DNA of 33,813 nucleotides. Origin: Moorena sp. SS36440bin_2. Lineage in GTDB: Bacteria > Cyanobacteriota > Cyanobacteriia > Cyanobacteriales > Coleofasciculaceae. Where the stretch lies: the NCBI GenBank assembly GCA_011524395.1, contig WTKN01000032.1, positions 1 to 33,813 of the forward strand, written 5' to 3'. Position numbers and translations under genes: made by a program. Positions 11,863 through 25,752 of this stretch are shown piece after piece. Position 1 is the stretch's first letter; every line of letters starts with the position of its first letter. A model generated the notes under the pieces. It was not told the DNA's origin. It worked only from the letters and a program-made list of their open reading frames with translations, and searched no databases.

Positions 11863-12276
11863 CTATTTTCCTTTCTGACTCTCTATATATTTTTTGACCA
11901 CCTCCGTGCTGACTTGACCTGTTGACGCCACAAAATAGGTTGGAGTCCACAATGAAGGCAGTTTCTTGAGATTAGGAAATTCTTTCCGTAAGTGATGTGA
12001 AGCTCGACCTTTCACCCATCGAGCTATCTCAGCAGGAGATTCATGGGTCGGTGCGTTTACAAACATATGGACGTGGTCTGGCATTATTTCTAATGCAATT
12101 AGTTTCCAGCCATGTTCGGAGACTAGATCAAAGATTATTTCTTGAAGCCGTCGAGCTACGTGTTCTACTAGCACAGGCTTTCGACGTTTTGGGACAAAGA
12201 CAAAATGATAGTTTATTGAAGATACCGACCCCTCTGTACGGCGGTACTCATAATCTTTGCTAGATAATTTTGCCAT
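11863..12276 (-). CDS. tnpA: IS200/IS605 Y1 (HUH) transposase TnpA
   Basis: 137 residues from the ATG at 12276. An upstream in-frame ATG at 12315 would add 13 Lys/Gln-rich residues, but MAKLSSKDYEYRRTEGSVS matches the expected start. The HUH motif is in MPDHVHMFV and the catalytic tyrosine in VVKKYIESQ near the C-terminus. The protein cuts and rejoins single-stranded element ends through a 5'-phosphotyrosine link. It is intact and full length, so the element may still move. It is divergent from tnpB with about 70 bp between the starts. Confidence 0.92.
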   Translation of the reverse strand: MAKLSSKDYEYRRTEGSVSSINYHFVFVPKRRKPVLVEHVARRLQEIIFDLVSEHGWKLIALEIMPDHVHMFVNAPTHESPAEIARWVKGRASHHLRKEFPNLKKLPSLWTPTYFVASTGQVSTEVVKKYIESQKGK

Positions 12277-12345
12277 TTTTTTTCGGGATTTTGTTGACTG
12301 CGGCTGTAGTAGCAAGTATACTTGTAAACAATGAGGTGATGCAAC

Positions 12346-13731
12346 TTGTACAAGACGATCCCAGTTAAAGCAACGTTTTCAGACGAAGAAAGAGCATTTT
12401 GGGAATTTCTTTGCCAGCAAGCCAACAGCTTGTTTAATTGTGCGATTTATTATGCTAAACAAAAACATTACGATTGGTTGAAAGAACAAGAGGCTTACAC
12501 CACCTACTGGCGTGGAGATGAATTAAGAATTGGGTGGAAAACTTACAAATGTACCACTAAATATCCAGAGATTGACAAAGCCTTGAAGATGTCACCTCAT
12601 TACAAGGCAATGGCAGCTCAGTCCGCTCAGCAAACTCTCAAGACAGTAGGTGAAGCGATCAAAAGCTATAACCAACTGGTGGGTTTGTATTACAAAAGAG
12701 AAGTGGACAGACCAAGATTCCCTCGATACCGCAAATCAGGAGGGTTTGCTGCTGTCACATTTCCCAGACAAGCTCTCACTTACAAGCAAGGATTGTTCTA
12801 CCCTTCTGTAAGCAAAGAGAGTAAACCAGAACTTCTGACGGAAATTACGTTAAGTCCCCCAGAGTTCATAGACTCTGACTGGGTCAAAGAGGTAACAATC
12901 CGCCCCTGTTATGGTCAGTTGTGGATTGACTGGGTAATAGATGACGGAAAGTCACCAATTGAAACTAATCCCGAACTAGATTACTCTCACGCTTTGGGCA
13001 TAGATCACGGAGGCGATAACTGGTTGACTTGTGTGTCTACCCTAGGAAAAAGCTTTATTATTGATGGCAAAAAACTCAAAGCCATGAATCAGGGGTATGC
13101 CCGACTAGTTGCCAAGCATAAAACTGGTAAACCAGAAAAATACTGGGATTCTACTTTAGACCGAATTCAACTAAAACGAAACAACCAGATGCGGGATGCA
13201 GTGAATAAAGCTGCTCGTTTCATCATTAATCGCTGTTTGAAAGACGGGATTGGAAATATTGTAATAGGTTGGAACGAAGATCAAAAGAATTGTTCCAATA
13301 TGGGGAGAAAAGGGAACCAGAAGTTTGTCCCCATCCCAACCAAAAAACTTATAGAAAGACTAAAACAATTATGCCTAGAACACGGAATCAAGTTAATAGT
13401 TACCGAAGAGTCTTACACAAGTAAAGCGTCCTTCTTGGACGGGGATTCATTACCAACATATGGTGAAAAACCCAGCGGATGGATTCCATCAGGTAAACGA
13501 GTTAGACGTGGTTTGTACCAAACGGCTTCAGGAAAGTTGATCAACGCCGACTCTAACGGCGCTGCCAACATTCTAAGAAAAGTAAGCACACAGCCATTTA
13601 ATATGGCCAAGGTGTCTAGGGGATCTTTGGCAGTCCCACACCGATATGATTTATTCAGTGGTTTGTCTACATCATATCGATATAAGAGTGGAGCGGGACG
13701 GGAAAACCGCTCCCGCGTAACAACCTTATAG
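12346..13731 (+). CDS. tnpB: TnpB-like RNA-guided nuclease, variant without zinc ribbon
   Basis: 461 residues. RuvC-I is GIDHGGDN (D220) and RuvC-III is INADSNGAANIL (D about 402). The segment where the RuvC-II glutamate normally sits reads IVIGWNEDQKN, without the standard position. A conserved EESYTSKASFLDGD block (E354/E355) follows, and the usual CxxC...CxxC zinc ribbon is absent. This matches the known OrfB group whose catalytic glutamate appears relocated. TnpB proteins are guided by an RNA from the element's right end and cut DNA next to the element's target motif, which helps the element persist. The stop codon overlaps by 6 bp the stop of the convergent RRE-HDO gene. Confidence 0.88.
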   Translation: MYKTIPVKATFSDEERAFWEFLCQQANSLFNCAIYYAKQKHYDWLKEQEAYTTYWRGDELRIGWKTYKCTTKYPEIDKALKMSPHYKAMAAQSAQQTLKTVGEAIKSYNQLVGLYYKREVDRPRFPRYRKSGGFAAVTFPRQALTYKQGLFYPSVSKESKPELLTEITLSPPEFIDSDWVKEVTIRPCYGQLWIDWVIDDGKSPIETNPELDYSHALGIDHGGDNWLTCVSTLGKSFIIDGKKLKAMNQGYARLVAKHKTGKPEKYWDSTLDRIQLKRNNQMRDAVNKAARFIINRCLKDGIGNIVIGWNEDQKNCSNMGRKGNQKFVPIPTKKLIERLKQLCLEHGIKLIVTEESYTSKASFLDGDSLPTYGEKPSGWIPSGKRVRRGLYQTASGKLINADSNGAANILRKVSTQPFNMAKVSRGSLAVPHRYDLFSGLSTSYRYKSGAGRENRSRVTTL

Positions 13732-13764
13732 AATCCCCCGTGCTTTAGCCGGGGGAGATGTCAA
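13610..13764 (+). ncRNA. Probable omega-RNA region at IS605 right end
   Basis: In TnpB systems the guide scaffold covers the 3' end of tnpB and the right end. Here 13630-13764 contains paired segments (ATATCGATATAAG near 13674; GAGCGGGA/CCGCTCCCGC at 13691-13716; the terminal CCCCCG/CGGGGG hairpin). The guide would be read from 13765 onward, inside the RRE-HDO gene. Boundaries are inferred from the family, not seen. Confidence 0.5.
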
Positions 13765-14760
13765 GCTATCAAAACAGCGAGGAATTCGGTTATGTGGATT
13801 GCCATAATAATCCAACATCTCGTGAGTCCGTAACACCATAGATTCCATCAGGGCAGTCATGTTCTTCTTCACCACTAATTGGTCTTCTGGTGAAACATAA
13901 GCTACGTCTGCTAACAAAACCTCGGTAATATCCTCATGGGCTCCATCGTCATTAATTTTGGCATGGAGCAAGATTGGTTGATAAAAGTCCGAAGGCATAT
14001 CTAAATCTTGACACCGCTGTTTGAATAACTCGTGGAACTCCTCACTGTGTTCTTCAAACATTAATAATGCTGCCTTGAAGCTGAGGGGATGCTGCTTCGC
14101 AAAAACTGCCAGACTTGAACAGACCGCAAACGTCATAGGTAATGGCAGCATCCGTTGTAATTGCTGACCAGAAATTCCCACACTCTTCAAGGATTTCTCC
14201 ATCAGACGGTCATGGTGCAACTCAGACCCAAAGAAATCCCGGAGGAGTTGGCGAATCTTAGGTGATTCATAATTGGCTAAAGACGGAGCCAGCAAACTCG
14301 GACACAGATGAGTAACGTGATAGGATTCCAAACTATAGCCAATCAACTGCTCTCGAGTAATCGTCCCATCTACCATCTTTAAGCTGTAAGGAGACTCAGG
14401 AAAACGCATTTTCAGACGGTTTAGGAATCGGTATAACTCCCGATAGAATTGATGTCCAGTAACACCACCAGATGTCACTGATTTCTCCCGCTCTATTAGC
14501 ATACCACGGCGGTCTAATTCTATTAGCAAGTCAGGAATCTGTTCTCGAATTCCTGGACACTCCTGAGCCAATTCCTCTGGTGACATCCCCCCAAACTGCA
14601 ACAGCTGGAACAGTTTATAAGTCTCCTGTTGCTTTTCAGGTTCTACTGTAATCGAACAGCCTTGGTTTTGATAACGAATTTCTACCCTGGTATCACTAAA
14701 TTTTAAACATACTTGATTCTTAAATAGGGGCTGTTTCAATAAACTCTTAGTTAAGGTCAT
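13726..14760 (-). CDS. RRE/PqqD-like plus heme-oxygenase-like (HDO) protein, ligand-rich paralog
   Basis: 344 residues from the ATG at 14760; earlier in-frame codons to 14904 come from tandem-repeat DNA. Residues about 20-92 resemble a PqqD/RiPP recognition winged helix (LFQLLQFGGMSPEELAQE then LLIELDRRGMLIE). Residues about 100-320 are all-helical and resemble heme-oxygenase-like/TenA/PqqC-type oxidases. Candidate metal ligands: E145, H148, H151; E180, H182, H183; E236-H243; and H266, D271/D272 and H275 in LLHAKINDDGAHED. Predicted role: oxidative modification of the linked precursor peptides, bound through the N-terminal domain (inference). It shares layout with the 349-residue gene upstream. 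The last 12 residues (LTSPPAKARGIL) are encoded by the IS605 right end, so the native C-terminus is lost or replaced. Confidence 0.68.
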   Translation of the reverse strand: MTLTKSLLKQPLFKNQVCLKFSDTRVEIRYQNQGCSITVEPEKQQETYKLFQLLQFGGMSPEELAQECPGIREQIPDLLIELDRRGMLIEREKSVTSGGVTGHQFYRELYRFLNRLKMRFPESPYSLKMVDGTITREQLIGYSLESYHVTHLCPSLLAPSLANYESPKIRQLLRDFFGSELHHDRLMEKSLKSVGISGQQLQRMLPLPMTFAVCSSLAVFAKQHPLSFKAALLMFEEHSEEFHELFKQRCQDLDMPSDFYQPILLHAKINDDGAHEDITEVLLADVAYVSPEDQLVVKKNMTALMESMVLRTHEMLDYYGNPHNRIPRCFDSLTSPPAKARGIL

Positions 14761-14799
14761 AACTTCATTCCTAACTGAATCTAAATTGGGTGATAATGT

Positions 14800-14967
14800 C
14801 CTTTTTTTTAGGGAATCGGGAGCAGGAAAGGTGGGGAGGTGGGGAGTAGCGATCGCAAAATTTACCACACTTACCATGCTTACCACGCTTACCCCTATCG
14901 CCACCCTCCCGACACCTCAGGACTCCGGACTCCCGACTCCCGATTCCCGATTCCCTACTCCCGATTT
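14800..14967. repeat. STRR repeats between the two RRE-HDO genes
   Basis: 14812-14850 has GGGAATCGGGAGCAGG units. 14925-14965 has ACTCCCGATTCCCGATTCCC units, largely the same heptamer family in the opposite sense, so the spacer could fold into a long imperfect hairpin. The middle is TTACCACACTTACCATGC-type repeat. No gene is supported. Confidence 0.7.
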
Positions 14968-16017
14968 CTACAGAGCCGAAACTCGTCTGAGCAAATCACT
15001 AGTGGATGAATAGTAGTTCCAAATCGCCCTGTAAAAATTGTTATACATTTCAATAAACAGGTAAATTTGATCCCCTAAGCGTTGCCGAGTTTTTTGATCA
15101 ACATGGCCAATGTCTTGAAAGATGCGATGAATTAAGTTTTCTGATTCTCCAGTTATATTTCTGTTTACCAATTCTCGAATTGGGTCGATAAACCCAGACT
15201 CAAGGTTAACCCGCTCACACGCAGCAAGGTAGGATGATAAATGATGGTATGCTTGACGTTTTAACACCCCTAAGGTACTTAATAAAACCAGTGGCTCGGA
15301 GTTTGCCCAATAGGCCAAAGCATTCCCAATTGCAACAGTTTCCGGTAGTGCGATCGCATCCTTTAAATCCTCATCGCTAATACCAATCCCATTCAACGCC
15401 TTCAACCAAAGCTGATCTTCCCCATATTCTTGACCATAGAGTTGGTTAATTAATTGTTTAACCTTTGTATAATTTTGGGTTCCCAGCACTGGGAAGTCCC
15501 AATTCCACCGATGGCAAGACAAATGGTAATGCTCTATTCCAAAGCCATACAAAACAGTGATCGGTAGCTCAGATTCACTAGAAGTTATTGGTTTCCAAAA
15601 CAGGTTTCCTTCAACAGTAGTTTCGAGTAAGTCATTGGTAAAATCCTCCAATTCCAGCAGAGTATCGATACCAGAATGAACTTTAAACGGAGTAGCATCA
15701 TCCAGTAACGCCTGCTCTTCCAATCCTTTCAAAATTGATTGAATTACTTCCGGGTTATCAGGAGCAAAAAGCTCTTGAAGCTCCTCAATACTCCTAGTAC
15801 CATCCATCATTACAAACAGTGTTTGTAATGTTTCGGCTGACAAACCGCTAGTCTCGAAACCAAAATATTGACCATCCCGATAAAAAACAATCTGATCGGG
15901 ATAGATATTAATGTTACAAGCTAATTTAGGGTAATTTATTGTCAGAATTTCCTGAGATTTACCATCAACTAATGGCTGAATTTGGTCTATAGTTGAATTT
16001 GAAATTACGCTTTCCAC
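14968..16017 (-). CDS. RRE/PqqD-like plus heme-oxygenase-like protein, degenerate paralog
   Basis: 349 residues, GTG start (GTG-GAA-AGC); no good ribosome-binding site is visible. Residues about 33-107 form a clear PqqD/RRE-like unit (LFVMMDGTRSIEELQELF then LKGLEEQALLDD). Residues about 150-336 align with the helical domain of the neighbour. E162, H165 and H169 match its first ligand helix (IEHYHLSCH versus LESYHVTH), and E197 matches E180. The later ligands are gone: EYGEDQ replaces ELHHDR, LKRQAYHHL replaces FEEHSEEFH, and NRNITGESEN replaces HAKINDDGAHED. Probably a non-catalytic partner or peptide-binding subunit (inference). It lies between the precursor genes and the ligand-rich paralog on the same strand. 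Confidence 0.65.
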   Translation of the reverse strand: MESVISNSTIDQIQPLVDGKSQEILTINYPKLACNINIYPDQIVFYRDGQYFGFETSGLSAETLQTLFVMMDGTRSIEELQELFAPDNPEVIQSILKGLEEQALLDDATPFKVHSGIDTLLELEDFTNDLLETTVEGNLFWKPITSSESELPITVLYGFGIEHYHLSCHRWNWDFPVLGTQNYTKVKQLINQLYGQEYGEDQLWLKALNGIGISDEDLKDAIALPETVAIGNALAYWANSEPLVLLSTLGVLKRQAYHHLSSYLAACERVNLESGFIDPIRELVNRNITGESENLIHRIFQDIGHVDQKTRQRLGDQIYLFIEMYNNFYRAIWNYYSSTSDLLRRVSAL

Positions 16018-16120
16018 AGTTTTTTTTTACTATCAGTAATTGTATATAAGCTGGTTTATTGGATTTATGAGTTACGCTTATAAACCTCAAAGTCACCTTT
16101 GATAAGTTTTTAATTGGATG

Positions 16121-16362
16121 CTCACGGGGTGACAACAAAGCTCAAACCTAGATAGGTATTGGGTTTTAGGTTTTAGGTTTTAGGTGTTGGATAAAATGAG
16201 CGCATCGGAGTCATTTGTATTTCCCAGCAATTGAAGCAATTTTCACCATACAACGTCAATGATAGTTTTAATCAATCCACCCGCAAGGGCAATTTTACCT
16301 AACACCTAACCCCTAAAACCTAACCCCTGTAAGATTTTAAAGAGCCCTTGTCACCCCCTGAG
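16121..16362. mobile_element. MITE-like element, copy A (15-bp inverted ends)
   Basis: A 242-bp non-coding element whose ends are CTCACGGGGTGACAA and TTGTCACCCCCTGAG, inverted repeats with one mismatch. Near the ends, CAAAGCTCAAACCTAG and CTGTAAGATTTTAAAGAGC also occur at 28412-28635 in the opposite orientation. Internal TTTTAGG repeats are present. It lies between the precursor genes and the enzyme genes, in the putative peptide operon. I see no clear target duplication. Confidence 0.75.
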
Positions 16363-16367
16363 TATCT

Positions 16368-16399
16368 CCTCAATCGAGATTAGAAGACTAGATTAGAGG
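16368..16399 (-). terminator. Hairpin spanning the stop of precursor 4
   Basis: CCTCAATCGAG / CTAGATTAGAGG forms a stem of about 10 bp with a 9-nt loop and covers the stop codon at 16393-16395. The same structure is found at 17019-17050 behind precursor 3. There is no T-run, so it may be a processing or stability hairpin, not a classic terminator. Confidence 0.5.
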
Positions 16400-16698
16400 G
16401 GTATAGCGCAAAAAGGAGGGTGTCCAGGGAGACACTTTTGAAAGGGATAACAGCCGTAGATCGGACGAGGTAGGGGAAAACCCTTGATAGGCTCGGAAAA
16501 AGTGATAGGCTCGGGAAGAGGCTTGAACTCAAGCTTTTCCTCAGGCATGGATTGATAGCTAATCCTTATATCTTCGATTGCTGTGATTTCTACGGTGTTT
16601 TTGATTTCAATGGGATTTGCGAATAGAGAACCCCCTTGGAGTGAGGACAACTCTTCAGTGTTGATTTCCTGGAGATTTTCCAGGTTCTCAATTTTCAT
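16393..16698 (-). CDS. RiPP-like precursor peptide 4 (Gly-Gly leader)
   Basis: 101 residues. Leader 1-23 is MKIENLENLQEINTEELSSL followed by Q-G-G, almost identical to three upstream genes and ending in the double glycine that C39-type peptidases usually cut. The 78-residue core is variable and ends Pro-rich with C83, C89 and C97 (YGCYPFQKCLPGHPPFCAIPL is the end, here 21 residues read as YGCYPFQKC plus LPGHPPFCAIPL). The core-to-leader contrast is what one expects of a natural-product precursor. Ribosome site AAGGAG about 12 bases upstream. It has its own conserved promoter module. The product class is unknown; a secreted or modified Cys/Pro peptide is inferred. Confidence 0.7.
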   Translation of the reverse strand: MKIENLENLQEINTEELSSLQGGSLFANPIEIKNTVEITAIEDIRISYQSMPEEKLEFKPLPEPITFSEPIKGFPLPRPIYGCYPFQKCLPGHPPFCAIPL

Positions 16699-16747
16699 GG
16701 ATTTTGTCTCCTTCTTGAGATAGTCTATGAATAGATGATATTTCGAG

Positions 16748-16814
16748 ATTTCTCATCTTGGTATGCTATGCCTAGTTTATGGGATTGGCTTAGATTGTTG
16801 TCGCCAAGTTGGCT
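16748..16814 (-). promoter_or_regulatory. Promoter module of precursor 4 with operator-like palindrome
   Basis: On the minus strand the inverted repeat GCCAACTTGGC (16803-16813) overlaps a -35-like GCGACA (16799-16804). After exactly 17 bases comes the -10-like CATAAA (16776-16781). Downstream is the conserved leader motif GCATACCAAGATGAGA (16751-16766). The same layout occurs before all four precursor genes. Confidence 0.6.
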
Positions 16815-17043
16815 TTTTTTTATAAATAAAAATAGTCGCTTTTTGCTAAGATAAACTAATTACAATTCTTAACAATATCAGCGACTATATAATATAACCC
16901 CATGGATTTTATGGATAAATTTTATTGATCCACAAACCCTTAGCTTTCTACTCAGAGGCTGTTTTAAAAATATTGGATACTACTCCATAATCCTCTAATC
17001 ACAAAAGCTAAGGTATCTCCTCAATCGAGATTAAAAGACTCGA
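16815..17043. other. Spacer between precursors 3 and 4
   Basis: AT-rich, non-coding. 16820-16990 has no recognisable feature. 17010-17050 holds the stop-codon hairpin of precursor 3. The spacer is part of a tandem unit of roughly 625 bp containing promoter, leader, core and 3' hairpin. Confidence 0.5.
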
Positions 17044-17050
17044 TTAGAGG
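17019..17050 (-). terminator. Hairpin spanning the stop of precursor 3
   Basis: CCTCAATCGAG / CTCGATTAGAGG pairs over about 11 bp with one bulge and a 9-nt loop, and overlaps the stop codon at 17044-17046. It differs from the copy at 16368-16399 by only two positions, one of which improves pairing here. Confidence 0.5.
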
Positions 17051-17325
17051 ATTGCATAGCAATAGGGGGGGTGTATAGTACCACATTTTGGTGGCAAGGG
17101 ATAATAACAGGGGTTGGGACGAGGTAGGGGAAAAGGCTTGCCAATAATAGGAGGGTTGGGCTGAGGCTCAGGCTCAGGCATAGGCCGATGGATATCAATC
17201 TTTATATCTTCGATATCTTTGATGTCTATGATGTCCACCGGATGTGCGATCATCCGACCACCTTCGAGTGAGGATAACTCCTCAGTGTTTATTTCCTGAA
17301 GATTTTCCAGGTTCTCAATTTTCAT
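17044..17325 (-). CDS. RiPP-like precursor peptide 3 (Gly-Gly leader)
   Basis: 93 residues from the ATG at 17325; an in-frame ATG at 17373 would add 16 residues but would skip the conserved AAGGAG site and break the shared leader start. The leader is MKIENLENLQEINTEELSSL then E-G-G. The core has an acidic Ile/Asp stretch (about 31-46), a Pro-rich stretch (PMPEPEPQPNPP) and a Cys/Pro end with C73, C81 and C89, finishing PPYCYAIL. Closest to precursor 4 in leader and layout. Function as a modified, exported peptide is inferred from the leader and neighbouring RRE proteins. Confidence 0.7.
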   Translation of the reverse strand: MKIENLENLQEINTEELSSLEGGRMIAHPVDIIDIKDIEDIKIDIHRPMPEPEPQPNPPIIGKPFPLPRPNPCYYPLPPKCGTIHPPYCYAIL

Positions 17326-17377
17326 GGATTTTTTCTCCTTCTTGATATAGTTGATGAATAGATGAGATTTCAAGCTT

Positions 17378-17441
17378 TCTCATCTTGGTATGCTATAATT
17401 AGTTTATGCAATTGGTTTAGAGTGTTGTCGCCAAGTTGGCT
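17378..17441 (-). promoter_or_regulatory. Promoter module of precursor 3 with operator-like palindrome
   Basis: Inverted repeat GCCAACTTGGC (17430-17440) overlaps -35-like GCGACA (17426-17431). A 17-base spacer and -10-like CATAAA (17403-17408) follow on the minus strand, then the conserved GCATACCAAGATGAGA. It is almost identical to the module of precursor 4. Confidence 0.6.
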
Positions 17442-17726
17442 TTTTATTAACAATAAAAGCGTTTATTGAGACTATGAAATTATTACAATTCTTAACAATA
17501 TCATGGAAGTCGTTACTCTATAAAATTCCTGCAGGGGGCAACAAGCACCGAAAACTACTTACCAATTCTAGGGTTAATTTAACTAGGCTCCAAAACTCTA
17601 CTTAGATAGTCATGAGCCTAGTTTCAATTACTGACAACTCAATCCCTAATTATTACGTCCAAAGTGCATTGGCTAAATCCAGACTAGATCAGGATTATAG
17701 TTGAATTGTTACCCCAAGAGGTAAAA
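17442..17726. other. Spacer between precursors 2 and 3, conserved with the next spacer
   Basis: 17530-17730 is homologous to 18215-18450: both carry AAGCACCGAAAACTA, AGTCATGAG..TAGTTTCAATTAC and TCCAGACTAG blocks in the same order. Non-coding, it represents the 3' untranslated and spacer part of a duplicated cassette. TCCAGACTAGATCAGGATTA (17679-17698) is a degenerate form of the hairpin seen at 18399-18415. Confidence 0.55.
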
Positions 17727-18005
17727 TTATAGAATCGAAACCACATAACAGGTGCCATAAGAGTTACTTAATGGAATTACCTTTTCCCGTTTATTAGCCA
17801 AAGTTAAATCACTAGGACATCTTGGTGGTAGTGTCTTGGCTATGGTAATTTTATTAAAAACTGAATTAATATAAGATAAATTGTTATCTATATCATCTAT
17901 ATGTCTGTCAATTATGAAGTCTTTGAACGATATCATGCCACCTTCAACAGAAGATAATTTATCTATCGTTATCTCCTGTAAATTTTCCAGGTTTTCAATT
18001 TTCAT
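17727..18005 (-). CDS. RiPP-like precursor peptide 2 (Gly-Gly leader)
   Basis: 92 residues. The leader is MKIENLENLQEITIDKLSSV then E-G-G, matching precursor 1 more than 3 or 4. The core is less proline-rich than its siblings, with C63 and C86 and the end SYGTCYVVSIL. All four precursors end with a Cys three to seven residues from a terminal Leu, usually -IL. Ribosome site AAGGAG lies about 13 bases upstream of the ATG. Its low proline content suggests core diversification after duplication. Role inferred from leader conservation. Confidence 0.68.
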   Translation of the reverse strand: MKIENLENLQEITIDKLSSVEGGMISFKDFIIDRHIDDIDNNLSYINSVFNKITIAKTLPPRCPSDLTLANKREKVIPLSNSYGTCYVVSIL

Positions 18006-18057
18006 TGATTTTGTCTCCTTCTTGAGATAGTCTAAGAATAGATTATAGTTAAGGCAA

Positions 18058-18122
18058 TACCCATCTTGGTATGCCAGGCTTATTTTATTAAATTGGCTTA
18101 ACTACTTGTCGCCATATTGGCT
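18058..18122 (-). promoter_or_regulatory. Promoter module of precursor 2 with operator-like palindrome
   Basis: Inverted repeat GCCAATATGGC (18111-18121) overlaps -35-like GCGACA (18107-18112). After 17 bases comes -10-like AATAAA (18084-18089), then GCATACCAAGATGGG. The spacing is identical to the other copies although the surrounding sequence has drifted. Confidence 0.58.
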
Positions 18123-18447
18123 TTTTTTAACAAAAAAAATTCGCCCCCTGCTAAGGCGACTTACTTTAAATACTTAGCAAGGAAAGCGAATTAGTTAATA
18201 GTTGAAAATCCCTGTATTGGGCGGAAAGCACCGAAAACTAACTGATGATTAGCAACGTTAAGGTTAAGGTCACTATGCTATGAAACTATAGATATATAGT
18301 CATGAGTATAGTTTCAATTACTGATAACTTAATCCCTGATTATTCCATCTAAGCGCCCGAAAAATCTAGTTGATTAGTTCAGTAAATGAATTCGCTTAAT
18401 CCAGACTAGGTCTGGATTATAGCTGACCTTTTCCCCAAAATCTAAAA
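18123..18447. other. Spacer between precursors 1 and 2 with 3' hairpin
   Basis: Homologous to 17530-17730. On the minus strand TCCAGAC-CTA-GTCTGGA (18399-18415) forms a 7-bp stem just after the stop region of precursor 1. The CTTTTTTTAACAAAAAAAA stretch near 18121-18139 lies upstream of the promoter palindrome. No gene is seen. Confidence 0.5.
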
Positions 18448-18714
18448 TTATAGAATAACAGGACAACTTCTTAACGGAATTACTGTGATATCTTTAGAAG
18501 GTAAAGGTCCGGGATAACCGGGATAACAGGGTAGAGGTGGTGGTGGTGGACAATAGGGACGAATGGGAAGTTGGTAATCTGGATTAATACGAATATCGCC
18601 TATATGTATTTTATCTGCGATCGGTTTATCTGCGATCGCTATCAAGCCACCTTCCACAGAAGATAATTTGTATATAGTTATCTCCTGTAGATTTTCTAAG
18701 TCTCCAATTTGCAT
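18448..18714 (-). CDS. RiPP-like precursor peptide 1 (Gly-Gly leader)
   Basis: 88 residues. The leader is MQIGDLENLQEITIYKLSSV then E-G-G, the most diverged of the four. The core has a strong polyproline stretch PYCPPPPPLPCYPGYPGP (about 53-70) with C55 and C63, and ends LRSCPVIL with C84. It is the first gene of the precursor series in the direction of transcription. Ribosome site GAAGGAGAATTTTCC precedes the ATG. The 5' leader also contains a TTGATG hexamer array, absent from the other three. Same inferred role as its siblings. Confidence 0.68.
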   Translation of the reverse strand: MQIGDLENLQEITIYKLSSVEGGLIAIADKPIADKIHIGDIRINPDYQLPIRPYCPPPPPLPCYPGYPGPLPSKDITVIPLRSCPVIL

Positions 18715-19093: not shown

Positions 19094-22000
19094 CTACTCC
19101 CTACTCCCTACTCCCTGTTCCCGTCCTACCACCAAATCCCACAAGGCATCAATACCACTCCCCACATACTCTGAATCCTGGTGTTGTTCAATCCATTCAA
19201 TTACAGTAGGAAGAACATGATTAGATGTTTTGCCCAATTGGCCCAAGGCATAGGCTGCCCTCCCACGCACATAATAATCATCATCCTTAAGCCTTGCTAG
19301 CAGGGCCTTGACTACAGTTTCTGAGCTGTTGCCCAATTTGCCCAAGGCTTCCGCTGCACTCACACGCACAATATAATCATCATCCTTAAGCCCTTCTAGT
19401 AGGGTCTTCACTACGTCTTCTGAGCTGTTGCCCAATTGAACCAAGGCATGGGCTGCCCACCCACGCACATAAGATTTATCATCTTGAACTCGTTTTCTGA
19501 GGGGTTCCACTACAGTTTCTGAGCTGTTGCCCAATTTGCCCAAGCCTCTGGCTGCCTGCCCACGCACAAAAGAATCATCATCCTTAAGCCTTGCTAGCAG
19601 GGCCTTGACTACAGTTTCTGAGCTATTGCCTAATTCGCCCAAGGCATAGGCTACCCTCATACGCACATTAGACTTATCATCCTTTAGTCGTGCTAGGAGG
19701 GGGTTAACAACAGTTTCTGAACTGTTGCCCAATTTGCCCAAGGCATGGGCTGCCCTCTCACGCACACAAAGATCGGGATCCTCAAGCTGTGTCAGGAAGG
19801 CGTTGATTACAGTTTCTGAGCTGTGGCCCAATCTGCCCAAGGCATTGGCTGCATTCTCACGCACAAAAGGCTCATCATTCTGAAGCAGTGCTCGTAGAGC
19901 GCTGACTACGTCTTCTGAGTTGTTGCCCACATTGCCCAAGGTTTTGGCTGCCCTCCTACGCACATTAGACTTATCATCCTTTAGTCGTGTCAACAATATT
20001 GTAATGACTTGATATTTTTCCCCTAACTCGTGTCGATAGTTCAGCAATCGTATGTCATCAATTCGATGGGATTCCTGCTTCAACAATTCCAATACCCGTT
20101 TATCAAAATCCGTTTCATACAAACTACAAATTATCTGAAAAACCTGCTCGCGAATCTTATTACCAACGCGCTCTTTAATCTCAAACTCAACCAACCGCTC
20201 CAAAATATCTTCCACTAAACCACTATCAGTACTCCGTAAATTTTTCGGGTCTTCTGCCAAACAACTACCAGCAAACAACAAATCCCGATGTAACCACTGC
20301 TCATAGTTACTCTTATTCGTTAAAACTGCCCGAATTGCCTTCGCTGCATTTTTCGGTTTTTGTTGTGCTATCAGCAATAGTAACACTTCGTGCCAGTGAG
20401 AGTCATGTAAATGGTCCTGAATATGATTCAAAATAATTCCAAAATCATATTCATTCTCGGCTTGATAGTTAATCTCTTGAGCACACAAATATTCTTGAAA
20501 CGTCTTATGAACAAAACCATAACAATCTTGCCCTTGCTCATTCAACAAACCAGTGCGCTTGCGAATCAACTCCACAAACCGTTTTGCCTCTTGCTTGGCT
20601 TTATACAAATCTACCTGCTTCAAGGTTTTAATCTGCTCAGCCAATTGCTGAATCAAATCATCTTGATCAATCAGCGTGCCACTATCGCTATCTTCAGCAT
20701 TTCCCTGAGTATGAATCCAATAGGCCAACCATTCCATCAATCGGCGTAAATCATCCAAACTCAAATAGGTCAACCACTTATCACTACTTAACTCTTTATT
20801 AGCATCCCAAGAGGTTAACAAGGTTTCCACTGCTTTGTCATAAAGCTTATAGCGTTCCTTTGGCAATACAACTTGATACCGATGAATCAATGCAATAATT
20901 GTCAACAATAACGGATTTCGTGCCAATAGCTTAATCCGGTCATTATCATCCAGCGCCTTTCGTAAACTTTCCTTGCGCCTTGCGGCTTCTGCTTGGTCTT
21001 GAAAGCGACTGTTATACCAGTTATCAATAAAAGCGGAAATCTTGCTATCATCAAAGGGTTCAATTTGATAGTGGGGAAAGTCCTCAGTGCGGAAAAAGTC
21101 GCGCCGATAACCAGCCGGTCGAGAGGTAATAATAGCGCGATTTCTGTCAAACTGTCCCAAAAAATTCTCGATGCGCCTGACTACATCATTGCGTTTAGCC
21201 TCATCTGCTACTTCATCCAAACCATCCAGCAATATCAAGGCTCTACCATCAGACAACCAATGCTCAAAAAATCCCACTGGTAACCGTTGCACTGACATGG
21301 TGTTTTCGGCAAACCCACGGGCATAGTCGATCAGATTTTTATCGAGATTTATCCCAAAATCTCGCATCCTGATTAAAATCGGTAACCAATCCGTATCACC
21401 ATCTAATCCCAACACCTCAGCCTTGCTCTCAGCCAACATTACTGCAAAATAACTCATCAACGTGGTTTTTCCCGAGCCAGGCGCACCCAATATCACCACT
21501 CGTCTCGACTGACTTTGGCTCAATAGCTGCTGAGCCAAGAATTTCCTACCAGTCGTCTTTTCCAACAGTGCTCTTTCCAGTTTTTCCCGACTTTCTCCTA
21601 CTAACAGCTCCCTCTCCCAAGCGCCAGCAGTTGATACCTCTTCCACCACATCGGGCATTACAAAAATTTGGGCTAACTTCTCCGATTTTTCTACCTCTTG
21701 CCCAGGCACAGCAATGCCAGCAAACTTGACATCATCAAACCAGTTAGCTAACTGATAACAATAATCCTGTTTAGCTACCTGAAATTTTATATAAGTAACC
21801 GTCTGCTCAAAATAAGCATTAATAAATGTTTCTATCCAAGGCTTGAGACTGTCTTGATTTAGTTGAATGTTATTCGTTTCTGCTTCTTGTATAAATACCC
21901 TGATTAAAATCTCCAGATCAGGCTTACCATGATTAATCAAAGGTTTCTGTAATTCCGCTAAAACTGCTGCATTAGTAAAATAGCCCCCCAAAAAGCGATT

Positions 22001-22228
22001 AACTCCATTCAATCCATCCGGCGGAGCATGAAAAAATAATAGTTGGCTCGGTTCCAGTTGTTTTTCCCATTCCTTAACTGCGTCTTCACCAGCTTTGATT
22101 GCCTTCTCTACATCGCTTTTTTTCAGAGATTTAATGATACGCTTACCTGCTTCTCCCGCAACAGTACCTAACAACGGTGATGCTATTTTCGATAGTTCCA
22201 AACCAGCCAAGAAGGAGAATGGTTCCAT
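19094..22228 (-). CDS. NACHT-family STAND ATPase with C-terminal HEAT repeats
   Basis: 1044 residues. An N-terminal helical region (1-200) of unknown type is followed by the NACHT ATPase. Walker A is GAPGSGKTTLMSY (about 245-257), Walker B ALILLDGLDEVAD (about 330-342), and AIITSRPAGYR is the sensor-like segment. After the winged-helix-like part, residues about 740-1010 form at least eight HEAT units of 33 residues with core VRGRAAYALGQLGNSSETVV. Bacterial NACHT proteins are known anti-phage sensors, so immunity is a reasonable inference. Several HEAT units are almost identical, indicating recent amplification. The last ten residues (GREQGVGSRE) are encoded by a GGGAGTA tandem repeat, so the natural C-terminus has been replaced or extended. 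No separate effector domain is recognisable. Confidence 0.88.
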   Translation of the reverse strand: MEPFSFLAGLELSKIASPLLGTVAGEAGKRIIKSLKKSDVEKAIKAGEDAVKEWEKQLEPSQLLFFHAPPDGLNGVNRFLGGYFTNAAVLAELQKPLINHGKPDLEILIRVFIQEAETNNIQLNQDSLKPWIETFINAYFEQTVTYIKFQVAKQDYCYQLANWFDDVKFAGIAVPGQEVEKSEKLAQIFVMPDVVEEVSTAGAWERELLVGESREKLERALLEKTTGRKFLAQQLLSQSQSRRVVILGAPGSGKTTLMSYFAVMLAESKAEVLGLDGDTDWLPILIRMRDFGINLDKNLIDYARGFAENTMSVQRLPVGFFEHWLSDGRALILLDGLDEVADEAKRNDVVRRIENFLGQFDRNRAIITSRPAGYRRDFFRTEDFPHYQIEPFDDSKISAFIDNWYNSRFQDQAEAARRKESLRKALDDNDRIKLLARNPLLLTIIALIHRYQVVLPKERYKLYDKAVETLLTSWDANKELSSDKWLTYLSLDDLRRLMEWLAYWIHTQGNAEDSDSGTLIDQDDLIQQLAEQIKTLKQVDLYKAKQEAKRFVELIRKRTGLLNEQGQDCYGFVHKTFQEYLCAQEINYQAENEYDFGIILNHIQDHLHDSHWHEVLLLLIAQQKPKNAAKAIRAVLTNKSNYEQWLHRDLLFAGSCLAEDPKNLRSTDSGLVEDILERLVEFEIKERVGNKIREQVFQIICSLYETDFDKRVLELLKQESHRIDDIRLLNYRHELGEKYQVITILLTRLKDDKSNVRRRAAKTLGNVGNNSEDVVSALRALLQNDEPFVRENAANALGRLGHSSETVINAFLTQLEDPDLCVRERAAHALGKLGNSSETVVNPLLARLKDDKSNVRMRVAYALGELGNSSETVVKALLARLKDDDSFVRGQAARGLGKLGNSSETVVEPLRKRVQDDKSYVRGWAAHALVQLGNSSEDVVKTLLEGLKDDDYIVRVSAAEALGKLGNSSETVVKALLARLKDDDYYVRGRAAYALGQLGKTSNHVLPTVIEWIEQHQDSEYVGSGIDALWDLVVGREQGVGSRE
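19200..20000 (-). repeat. Near-identical HEAT-coding repeats (period 99 bp)
   Basis: Eight tandem 99-bp units. Plus-strand blocks such as CAGTTTCTGAGCTGTTGCCC and ACGCACATAAGA recur with few changes. Two units encode the identical segment GNSSETVVKALLARLKDDD. The variable residues fall between SFVRG/SNVRM-type positions on what would be one face of the solenoid. Confidence 0.85.
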
Positions 22229-24469: not shown

Positions 24470-25372
24470 TCAAACAGCCAACCAAACCGAAAGGTCTCGT
24501 TGAATCAAATCTTGGAGTTTCAGGATATCATCACGATAAAATTCCAGCAACTCTTGCCGTTCTTCTTTAGAAAGAGCAGCTTTTTTATTATCAGTTGAGT
24601 TCATGTTGATTAGGGCTGAACGAACAGTTTGCCTCACTTCCACTGGCAGAATGTACTTTAGTCCAGAAGCCACCATAGTTCTGAAGGGATTTTGTTTCCG
24701 CAACAGATCATTAACCAATTTTACTTTAGGAACTTGAGCCACTTGAGCTTTTTTCGATACATCCGGGATAAACGTTTCATCTACTCCAATGAATCGATAC
24801 ATATCCTGGATCAAAGCCACGGGAGTTTTACATAAATCATCGTACAGATAAACTTTAATTTTATCTGGATTAAACGTTTCTAAAAAATGCGTCAATTGAT
24901 CAGTATACAGTCCTTTTTTTAGGGTAAACGACCCCTGAGAGCGAAACTTAATCTGTTCCGATAAGGGTTGAACCTTACCCGCTACATCCGTCGCTTCCCG
25001 AACGTGCATTAAATAATCCGAATAAGCTCGGTCTACGGGATTTCGGAGAATAGCAATCAGTTTAACATCGGGCAAATAACGCAATATTAGCTCAGACGAT
25101 GATTTATAATGAAACAAATAGTTAGGCGATGCTTCTCCAATCGCTATTTCATCCTTAACATCTTGGAAAAGTTTACAATATTTTTCCAAGGTATCAATTC
25201 GATTTTCGTTAGGAGTTACTAGGTCTGGCGATAACGTTTCCCAATCTTTCTCTAAAAAATTGGTTTCCTTAACCGGACTCATATAAACTTGAGGGTGTTG
25301 CGTTAAGTAGTTATAAATAGAAGTTGTTCCTGCCTTCTGCACACCTATAATTAAAAAAGTCGGTAATTTCAT
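24470..25372 (-). CDS. PAPS-dependent sulfotransferase
   Basis: 300 residues from the ATG at 25372; a longer frame to 25450 starts inside repeat DNA. The 5'-phosphosulfate loop is IGVQKAGTTSIYNYL (residues 9-23, K12) and the 3'-phosphate-binding segment is LRNPVDRAYSDYL. The C-terminal end QRDLSVWL matches the family. The reaction moves a sulfuryl group from PAPS to a hydroxyl or amine; the relatives are carbohydrate or glycolipid sulfotransferases of the bacterial Sulfotransfer_1/3 group. The acceptor is unknown; no glycosyltransferase cluster adjoins it. Convergent with the tRNA. Confidence 0.9.
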   Translation of the reverse strand: MKLPTFLIIGVQKAGTTSIYNYLTQHPQVYMSPVKETNFLEKDWETLSPDLVTPNENRIDTLEKYCKLFQDVKDEIAIGEASPNYLFHYKSSSELILRYLPDVKLIAILRNPVDRAYSDYLMHVREATDVAGKVQPLSEQIKFRSQGSFTLKKGLYTDQLTHFLETFNPDKIKVYLYDDLCKTPVALIQDMYRFIGVDETFIPDVSKKAQVAQVPKVKLVNDLLRKQNPFRTMVASGLKYILPVEVRQTVRSALINMNSTDNKKAALSKEERQELLEFYRDDILKLQDLIQRDLSVWLAV

Positions 25373-25752
25373 TTGATTTCTAGGGAGAATAGACAACAAA
25401 CAAGAGGCAATAGGCAATAGGCAAGCTAGCAATAGGGGGGAGCATGTCAATTTTATTAATCCCTGATTCAGATCCCTTAATAAGGGGGGATTTTTAATCT
25501 AATTCCCCCCTTTTCTAAGGGGGGCTAGGGGGGATCTATTTACCTAATTAAAAATTACAAAGGTGACATGCTCCCGGGGGAGTGTGGGGAGATAGGGAAG
25601 TAGCGGTAAATCCACCTTCTTCAAATTTCGCCCCTGACTAGTGACTAGTGTAATTAGCTGATGTGGCCGCTATTAGTTTCTACTCAAATAATACCCACCT
25701 TGAAAGTGGATATCACCAAATATCACCAAGAAACGACTATACACTTCCCTAA
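25373..25752. other. Intergenic region with STRR and MITE-like element
   Basis: 25395-25432 has GGCAATA-type repeats. 25438-25575 is a terminal-inverted-repeat element (listed separately). 25690-25712 has a weak hairpin (CCACCTTGAAAGTGG) that may end glgP transcription. No gene is seen. Confidence 0.5.
25438..25575. mobile_element. 138-bp MITE-like element with GGGAGCATGTCA ends
   Basis: Twelve-base inverted ends GGGAGCATGTCA / TGACATGCTCCC enclose a non-coding interior. That interior has a G/C-block hairpin (AAGGGGGGA...TTCCCCCCTT, then CTAAGGGGGGCTAGGGGGGA). It lies directly upstream of the sulfotransferase start. The interior G/C blocks resemble the palindrome at 7965-7987 and those inside 32479-32576. 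Confidence 0.65.

Follow-up and report, generated by a model that had tools for sequence, protein, structure and literature searches.

A candidate RiPP pathway of Moorena and other bacteria in which a pair of RRE–heme-oxygenase-like proteins may oxidise the C-terminal tail of its precursors

Introduction

A heme-oxygenase-like protein that works on a ribosomally synthesized and post-translationally modified peptide (RiPP) is known from the thiovarsolins, for which a VarO deletion mutant made only +2 Da forms, a result interpreted by its authors in terms of a double bond in the Arg side chain (PMC6511847). In this work we describe a locus of the cyanobacterium Moorena sp. SS36440bin_2 in which four small genes for precursors with Gly-Gly leaders are followed by two genes, here called HDO1 and HDO2, whose products each join an N-domain of the RiPP recognition element (RRE) type to a domain of the heme-oxygenase-like diiron oxidase (HDO) superfamily. 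The whole stretch of DNA analysed, called the window below, comprises 33,813 nucleotides (contig WTKN01000032.1 of assembly GCA_011524395.1, positions 1 to 33,813). Like the VarO cluster, it places a heme-oxygenase-like protein within a RiPP cluster, and VarO is a precedent for HDO chemistry on a RiPP; an earlier note on this DNA had known of no described RiPP class with the pair. Compared by description, thiovarsolin clusters combine YcaO-TfuA with repeat cores, and the available part of that report describes neither a paired RRE-HDO nor a -VxL tail (PMC6511847). Conversely, Pfam scans of 26 window proteins (24 of the 27 open reading frames (ORFs) of at least 100 amino acids, plus two shorter precursors) showed neither YcaO nor TfuA, which sets the window apart from clusters of the thiovarsolin type.

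A close likeness in enzymology is MboA, the mangotoxin acetylenase, which oxidises a tripeptide at its C-terminal Arg, the carboxylate being on Fe1 and the C-beta near the cluster (PMC13185094). Its ligands are spaced H-x3-D-x4-H, as in HDO2 except that HDO2 has Asn for the Asp; MboA differs in its tripeptide substrate and in being a single HDO with a redox partner, MboB, and the part of the paper at hand mentions no leader or RRE (PMC13185094). A phmmer search with HDO1 as query returned MboA as a non-significant match (E = 0.74). In five HDOs with substrate-bound structures the substrate ligates Fe1, and UndA, BesC, PolF and FlcE/FlcD are described as taking carboxylate-bound substrates through decarboxylation or aliphatic side-chain desaturation (PolF on isoleucine) (PMC13108848). 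These enzymes belong to the same superfamily as the HDO pair but use small molecules, and no leader-binding domain is mentioned for them in the accessible part of that source (PMC13108848). RiPPs, RREs and HDOs are each known already, as is, with VarO, a heme-oxygenase-like protein on a RiPP; what is new is the paired RRE-HDO together with a C-terminal tag. The reading we favour, and hold to be probable, is a RiPP pathway in which the two RRE-HDO subunits together oxidise the precursor at its C-terminal tail.

Results

The Moorena locus

The features of the locus are as follows.

18448..18714, minus strand: precursor 1, leader MQIGDLENLQEITIYKLSSVEGG, core end -SCPVIL; relatives at L016 8111 and L017 1698
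17727..18005, minus strand: precursor 2, leader MKIENLENLQEITIDKLSSVEGG, core end -CYVVSIL
17044..17325, minus strand (ATG at 17325): precursor 3, leader MKIENLENLQEINTEELSSLEGG, Pro-rich core, end -YCYAIL
16393..16698, minus strand: precursor 4, leader MKIENLENLQEINTEELSSLQGG, Pro-rich core, end -FCAIPL
18448..18465, minus strand: tail codons of precursor 1 (-CPVIL and stop), proposed modification site
17727-17744, 17044-17061 and 16393-16410, minus strand: tails of precursors 2, 3 and 4, equivalent proposed modification sites
14968..16017, minus strand: HDO1, RRE-type N-domain and HDO domain with metal-ligand positions lost, likely a pseudoenzyme and leader-binding partner
13726..14760, minus strand (ATG at 14760): HDO2, RRE-type N-domain and HDO domain with ligand positions kept, likely the catalytic subunit

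The gene order on the minus strand is four Gly-Gly-leader ORFs (18714 down to 16393), then HDO1, then HDO2, and the ORFs bear out the earlier note, which had reported four tandem precursors with a common leader upstream of two same-strand RRE-HDO fusions. Precursor copies are spaced 627, 680 and 709 nucleotides apart and are, judging from their sequences, tandem duplicates. The leader consensus of the window type is MKIENLENLQEI..(E/D)(E/K)LSS(L/V)(Q/E)GG, with the variant MQIGDLENLQEI. In 17 precursors of this type, called the ENLENLQEI type, the invariant columns are leader residues including the GG, one Pro, one near-terminal Cys and the last Leu. The locus has the genetic make-up of a RiPP system, an encoded precursor with a conserved leader and a variable core beside adjoining modifying enzymes, and the same locus is present in two Moorena genus-mates of the source genome. 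As the earlier note had said, the window holds no exporter or peptidase that we could detect: neither these, among them a Gly-Gly (C39) peptidase, nor a lanthipeptide enzyme gave a Pfam match among the 26 window proteins, and the 10 C39 peptidase matches of the source genome are all on other contigs.

A C-terminal tail shared by the precursors

Tails were counted in 21 cyanobacterial loci, in which all Gly-Gly peptides of two short leader types were classed either as operon precursors, that is upstream of HDO1 on the same strand (n = 42), or as controls, the other Gly-Gly peptides of the same loci (n = 25); L020 and L065 yielded no precursor. A terminal Leu is found in 36 of the 42 operon precursors against 7 of the 25 controls (Fisher p = 3e-6), an Ile-Leu end in 29 against 1, and Val-Ile-Leu in 22 against 1. 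The motif [CSTE][PYAI][VAIL][IQPTVMH]L fits 34 operon precursors and 2 controls (p = 3e-9), and it tells against the force of these comparisons that control set and motif were both set after looking and that precursor rows are interrelated. Both motif-fitting controls sit behind HDO2 (L027, L062). A masked row, L018 19099, was dropped before counting, and L005 15590, which lies 6.2 kb upstream, was made a control after looking (the count would otherwise be 36 of 43). Among 35 cores of less than 70% identity, entropy is lowest at position -1 (0.82 bits), against 1.6-1.8 at -2 and -3 and 3.1-3.7 from -8 to -15. The earlier note had proposed Cys, Pro or the C-terminal end as the site of oxidation; these data single out the C-terminus, while Pro is not conserved system-wide and Cys is invariant only in the ENLENLQEI type.

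Four more intact pairs were found after the rule had been made, and all five of their precursors end in Leu (-AVVL, -AVIL, -PVIL, -MMIL and -PIGL). The last two come from L112 and carry a long NHLP leader (TIGR03793, E = 5e-31 and 7e-30), which is not related to the short leaders; they were chosen from the ORF list, and NCBIfam afterwards named both as NHLP-leader precursors. At L110 the contig begins inside the precursor (-AVIL), whose leader is therefore unseen. In L064 (6056-8479), four precursors end -VNH, -VGH, -VFH and -SAH and a fifth, neighbouring one ends -CPVHL; this genome belongs to the same genus group as Rivularia sp. MS3, and a changed terminal-residue specificity is possible there.

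All 44 tail precursors (36 from operons, 5 from the loci found later, 3 non-cyanobacterial) have CTN as the terminal Leu codon, never TTA or TTG, a count that is inflated by related rows. By comparison, the share of CTN is 57% among the remaining Leu codons of these precursors and 43% among those of the HDO genes of eight loci, and 15 of the 29 terminal Leu codons of long ORFs at the same loci are CTN. Third bases vary, both for Leu (CTC 16, CTG 15, CTA 4, CTT 1) and for Ile (ATT 14, ATC 11, ATA 4); the codons at -2 and -3 vary in their third base, and position -2 is filled by different residues, among them Ile, His, Pro and Gln. Because these codons vary and the -2 residue changes, a protein-level reading of the tail stays our first choice. 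A hairpin overlaps the ends of window precursors 3 and 4. A terminator hairpin over the stop codon, with the -IL end as its side effect, was rejected as the whole explanation, since folding is weak at many other loci and the -2 and -3 codons are variable.

Homologous pairs on plasmids outside cyanobacteria

A DNA search of plasmids with the whole locus returned short pieces only, with 1% coverage. A protein search found HDO2 homologues over 95-99% in Robbsia andropogonis, Rhodococcus gordoniae and Tistrella mobilis, and a further, distant homologue in Enterobacter. Each of the three pairs has one short same-strand upstream ORF that ends in -VHL and has a plausible ribosome site by eye. The Robbsia peptide (27 amino acids, end RPVLIPVHL) lies 68 nucleotides ahead of the first possible HDO1 start; the Rhodococcus peptide is probably 17 amino acids long, from MTITKKK, and ends RTIVAVAVHL; and that of Tistrella ends KPVLIAVHL about 1.9 kb ahead of the fused HDO1-HDO2 gene, from which it is separated by a gene for a thiamine-diphosphate enzyme. 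The Robbsia and Rhodococcus peptides, absent from the plasmid gene tables, were first spotted by eye in the ORF list, and the Tistrella peptide by a later pattern scan. In dinucleotide shuffles of the 2.2 kb upstream, [PA]V[HI]L-stop arose in 0.2%, 0% and 0.4% for Robbsia, Tistrella and Rhodococcus, while the less strict V[HI]L-stop did so in 2.7%, 0.1% and 1.8%, figures weakened by the fact that the motif was set after the peptides, and the 2.2 kb width after the Tistrella peptide, had been seen. On both strands of the three loci, 15 ORFs end in [VIA]xL and 3 in V[HI]L. The -VHL peptides are unlikely to be there by chance. Four kinds of leader, namely two short Gly-Gly types, the long NHLP type and tiny peptides without Gly-Gly, occur with one kind of tail, and the sequences indicate that a -V-x-L-like tail goes with the pair across three phyla while the leaders change completely.

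A third, larger protein is encoded behind the pair in Robbsia and Tistrella (L090 10020-11510 and L092 10005-11603); it has a weak PF14518 match in Robbsia and no Pfam match in Tistrella. The Robbsia stretch also carries a class III aminotransferase, an EamA transporter and a GNAT acetyltransferase, and that of Rhodococcus an MFS transporter and a GNAT protein. Such transporter and GNAT genes might serve export of, and self-protection from, a small product.

Domains and metal-ligand positions of HDO1 and HDO2

The two genes lie side by side in all intact loci read, or are fused, as in L032 and in Tistrella, and HDO1 and HDO2 are homologous across 305 columns (hhalign probability 99.4). A longer ORF would start HDO2 at a GTG at 14904; since most relatives have their start at the shared MSLTK/MTLTK position, this GTG is an improbable start. 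AlphaFold, run with only 7 sequences per alignment, gave mean confidence (pLDDT) values of 46 and 44 for the two window proteins and about 60-80 for their N-domains. Both N-domains were modelled with fair confidence as three strands and three helices, the RRE winged-helix fold, and their top Foldseek matches are the RRE-bearing PbtF (8t19), ThcOx (5lq4), TbiB1 (5v1u/5v1v) and McbBCD (6gri), with probabilities of 0.77-1.00 but E-values of 0.06-0.4. They share this fold with those proteins and differ in being fused to an HDO domain. As modelled, the N-domains of both HDO1 and HDO2 are of the RRE type, and leader binding is predicted. The fold check proposed in the earlier note thus came out for the RRE half; the models of the HDO domains are unusable, and the HDO fold is drawn from profiles.

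The two window proteins match PF14518 at E = 8e-6 and 1.7e-5, both under the Pfam cut-off. In the HDO2 family, PF14518 is found in 17 of 17 sequences (best 1.1e-7) and PF03070 in 14 of 17 (best 4.8e-9) at E<=0.001; the HDO1 family is weaker, with PF14518 in 4 of 16 and PF03070 in 6 of 16 at E<=0.01. The Tistrella fusion clears the PF14518 cut-off (E = 7.6e-18). A sequence search of the PDB gave weak matches to the heme-oxygenase-like fold only (3dde, E = 0.08-0.13; 8va9 and 1rcw, E = 0.65-0.84). By these sequence profiles, and not by a confident model, HDO2 has the heme-oxygenase-like fold. The earlier idea of a RiPP system with RRE-HDO fusions has good support.

Ligand positions are numbered on HDO2, counted from the Met at window position 14760. 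HDO2 keeps E145, H183, E236, H266, N270 and H275 in all 17 cyanobacterial and all 3 other sequences, with the spacing H-x3-N-x4-H over H266, N270 and H275; three His and two Glu are invariant, and Asn270 stands at the usual Asp position. Cyanobacterial HDO1 has lost four of these six positions (183, 236, 266 and 275) in 17 of 17 sequences: it has Gln, Glu, Lys or Leu at 183, Leu or Gly at 266, and never Glu at 236 or His at 275, so that a 3-His/3-carboxylate set is not found in it. All four are retained in the three HDO1 sequences from Robbsia, Tistrella and Rhodococcus, one of which has Gln at 145. Since four ligand positions are gone from cyanobacterial HDO1, the cyanobacterial pair is probably made of one oxidase and one inactive partner. 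On this evidence cyanobacterial HDO1 looks like a pseudoenzyme partner and HDO2 is likely to be the catalytic subunit, which goes against the earlier suggestion that both proteins catalyse oxidation. FlcE and FlcD serve one pathway; we also weighed a mononuclear iron of the FlcD kind for HDO1 and found it improbable, since H148 is also lost in 2 of the 17 cyanobacterial HDO1 sequences. In a tree, HDO1 and HDO2 form two separate, fully supported clades, each with non-cyanobacterial members and with several long branches flagged; as both clades have such members, the HDO1/HDO2 duplication would predate the spread of the pair.

The C-terminus of window HDO2 reads -RCFDSLTSPPAKARGIL, against -RCFDTIGG or -RCFT in relatives, and its last 13 residues deviate. 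An IS200/IS605 element lies at window 11863-13731 (Y1 transposase, PF01797, and OrfB_IS605, PF01385), and its apparent insertion in the final HDO2 codons would have supplied these residues. A GC-rich hairpin, identified by eye, is found near the HDO2 3' end (about 13735-13755).

Distribution of the pair and its linkage to the leaders

With HDO1 as query, the pair was found in 4 of 97 relatives, the source genome included; it was found in 2 of 386 genomes drawn across the phylum, in 13 of 217 genomes of one family (one a weak, broken match) and in 13 of 388 drawn across the order (fragments included). A named scan gave 13 loci in 12 cyanobacteria. Among the 28 cyanobacterial loci read, 23 are intact, each with adjacent or fused HDO1-HDO2 and at least one Leu-ending precursor. 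The pair is broken, and no precursor was found, in L020 (HDO2 with a stop), L065 and L113 (HDO1 shortened) and L114 and L115 (HDO2 fragments). L021, L023, L031 and L035 repeat L016, L018, L020 and L026 and were left uncounted.

A lack of linkage between these leaders and RRE-HDO genes in other genomes had been named beforehand in the earlier note as grounds for giving up the proposal. The linkage is there: a profile of the ENLENLQEI precursors gave 12 matches in 4 of the 97 relatives, 11 of which are in HDO-pair loci, and the twelfth (in genome G003) is weak (E = 3e-4) and lies within a frame of 317 amino acids. Among 217 genomes of another family, the profile gave 8 matches in 3 genomes, 5 on HDO-pair contigs; of the remaining 3, two are on a small contig of the same genome and one is weak, with stops. 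Our searches of a library of open-licence papers found none describing paired RRE-HDO proteins, though subscription papers or preprints may do so. We take the RiPP system to be real and conserved and, as far as those searches go, undescribed.

Discussion

Our observations lead us to propose the following course of events. The RRE domains of HDO1, HDO2 or both would bind the leader and present the tail to HDO2, where the free carboxylate of the terminal Leu would ligate Fe1, as in MboA and UndA, and O2 activation would take a C-beta hydrogen from that residue. The outcome would be either oxidative decarboxylation to a C-terminal enamide, as in UndA, or a desaturated Leu, as in MboA and VarO. 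Attack at the terminal Leu is proposed because an HDO that needs a free alpha-carboxylate finds one on a peptide only at the C-terminus. This particular reaction, decarboxylation or desaturation of the terminal Leu, is drawn by analogy and we put it forward as rather doubtful. The Gly-Gly leader would be removed and the product exported by C39 transporters encoded elsewhere, and in loci with class V lanthipeptide kinase and lyase genes beside the pair, Ser/Thr dehydration would be added on the same core.

Several points weigh against oxidation of the tail by the pair. Six of the 42 operon precursors have no Leu end (the four His ends of L064, -RRW at L062 7537 and -IIW at L033 3061), and the invariant CTN codon may reflect a DNA- or RNA-level constraint at the gene end. 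In HDO2, Asn270 stands for the usual Asp ligand, H148 of the E-x2-H motif is lost in 2 of the 3 non-cyanobacterial sequences, and the diiron site is seen in no structure, AlphaFold having failed on the HDO domains. Every one of the 17 ENLENLQEI-type precursors has the near-terminal Cys, at about -5, which might be the residue attacked in that type, and the conserved tail could be a recognition element only. In this last case the -V-x-L tail would be a follower tag that docks the substrate, oxidation would take place elsewhere in the core, for example at the Cys around -5 or at Pro or Tyr, and the tail might be trimmed later. The tail is indeed bulky, hydrophobic and docking-like, several cores are Pro- and Tyr-rich, and C, T or S stands at -5 in 28 of the 35 thinned cores. 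However, position -5 differs between members of the full set, with Glu in -YEPVIL and either Ile or Val in the -VHL peptides, and -1 is the most conserved position; in addition, the characterised MboA puts the C-terminal carboxylate of its substrate on the iron, which calls for no second site (PMC13185094, from the part available). We regard this alternative as unlikely, with some weight left to it.

HDO1 and HDO2 might also be a leader-binding scaffold or chaperone rather than oxidases, the tail or its DNA serving export, cleavage or expression. The absence of a metal site in cyanobacterial HDO1, the Asn of HDO2 and the uniform CTN codon are in keeping with this idea, and some relatives with this fold are metal-free, those of pyrroloquinoline quinone (PQQ) and thiazole synthesis being named in the part of the source at hand (PMC13108848). 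Yet E145, H183, E236, H266 and H275 of HDO2 are invariant inside and outside cyanobacteria, which suggests that the site is in use, and the -2 and -3 codons vary freely, so that we consider a purely structural role very improbable.

A further explanation starts from class V lanthipeptides, such as cacaoidin and lexapeptide, which are made with LanK and LanY (PMC9486802, in the part available to us): the system would be a class V pathway with HDO tailoring, and the window locus an orphan arm that uses a kinase and a lyase from elsewhere in the genome. Genes for an APH-like kinase and/or a HopA1-like lyase of the type found in L019 lie near 10 of the 21 loci (kinase: NCBIfam LxmK, E = 2.9e-31 and 109 bits, under the cut-off of 315; lyase: PF17914, E = 2e-63), the source genome has 5 HopA1-domain matches, and cyanobacterial 'type-B' class V precursors have been noticed previously (PMC9486802, same part). 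By contrast, neither kinase nor lyase occurs in the stretch read of the other 11 loci, the window included, the annotation of the Robbsia and Rhodococcus stretches lists none, and some cores are poor in Ser/Thr, that of window precursor 3 having one Thr and no Ser. An APH-like LanK and a HopA1-like LanY beside the precursors, which would mark class V, were not found among the window proteins; nor was a class II LanM, which among the 21 loci occurs only behind HDO2 in L018, L019 and L022. Peptides on the kinase/lyase side that are not upstream of the pair lack the tail (L005 15590, L024 11558, L062 14243 and 15075), and for this reason a tie of the tail to the class V kinase/lyase instead of the HDO pair was rejected. 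Since the window and ten other loci show no kinase or lyase in the stretch read, we take the lanthipeptide enzymes as an addition to the system and not as its definition, and find the orphan-arm explanation quite improbable. Some products may also carry dehydro residues or thioether rings.

Returning to oxidation of the tail by the pair, a broader and more tentative proposal, possible in our view yet short of an even chance, is that of an ancient, horizontally spread heterodimeric RRE-HDO that would read a -V-x-L-COOH tag behind at least four leader types and make a C-terminal enamide or unsaturated Leu, one subunit having become a leader-binding pseudo-oxidase in cyanobacteria. If true, it would be a new RiPP class-defining enzyme, an O2-dependent oxidase aimed at the open C-terminus of a gene-encoded peptide. 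It would also provide a portable means of altering peptide C-termini and a clean case of an enzyme pair of which one half is a pseudoenzyme. A simple search rule follows from it: HDO1-HDO2 with a small upstream ORF ending V-x-L, a rule that has already brought to light the small peptides which the Robbsia and Rhodococcus gene tables lack.

Neighbouring genes

Window 19094-22228, on the strand of the precursors and immediately upstream of them, encodes a NACHT-type NTPase with HEAT repeats, and similar-looking NTPase proteins adjoin the locus in two other Moorena genomes (L016, L017). A sulfotransferase gene (24470-25450) and a gene for a caspase-like peptidase fused to an nSTAND NTPase (31374-33794) lie further away in the window and show no sign of belonging to the system. 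In L017 (4878-6698), an MsbA-like ABC transporter without a C39 domain is encoded between the precursors and HDO1, near a transposase-like gene. The source genome has a second HDO locus (L005, 11846-15790), which adjoins a class V-like set made of an APH-like kinase, a HopA1-like lyase, a luciferase-like (LLM) oxidoreductase and its own tail-less Gly-Gly precursor. In Calothrix, arrays of precursors of the Nif11-leader type lie behind HDO2 (L025 11200-13600 and L028 3317-5700; one scanned, TIGR03798/PF07862), and short pieces left over from the 3' end of HDO2, about 30 codons long, separate some of the precursors, as if copied with each duplication. A nif11-class radical SAM maturase follows the arrays (TIGR04103, scanned in L025 and L033).

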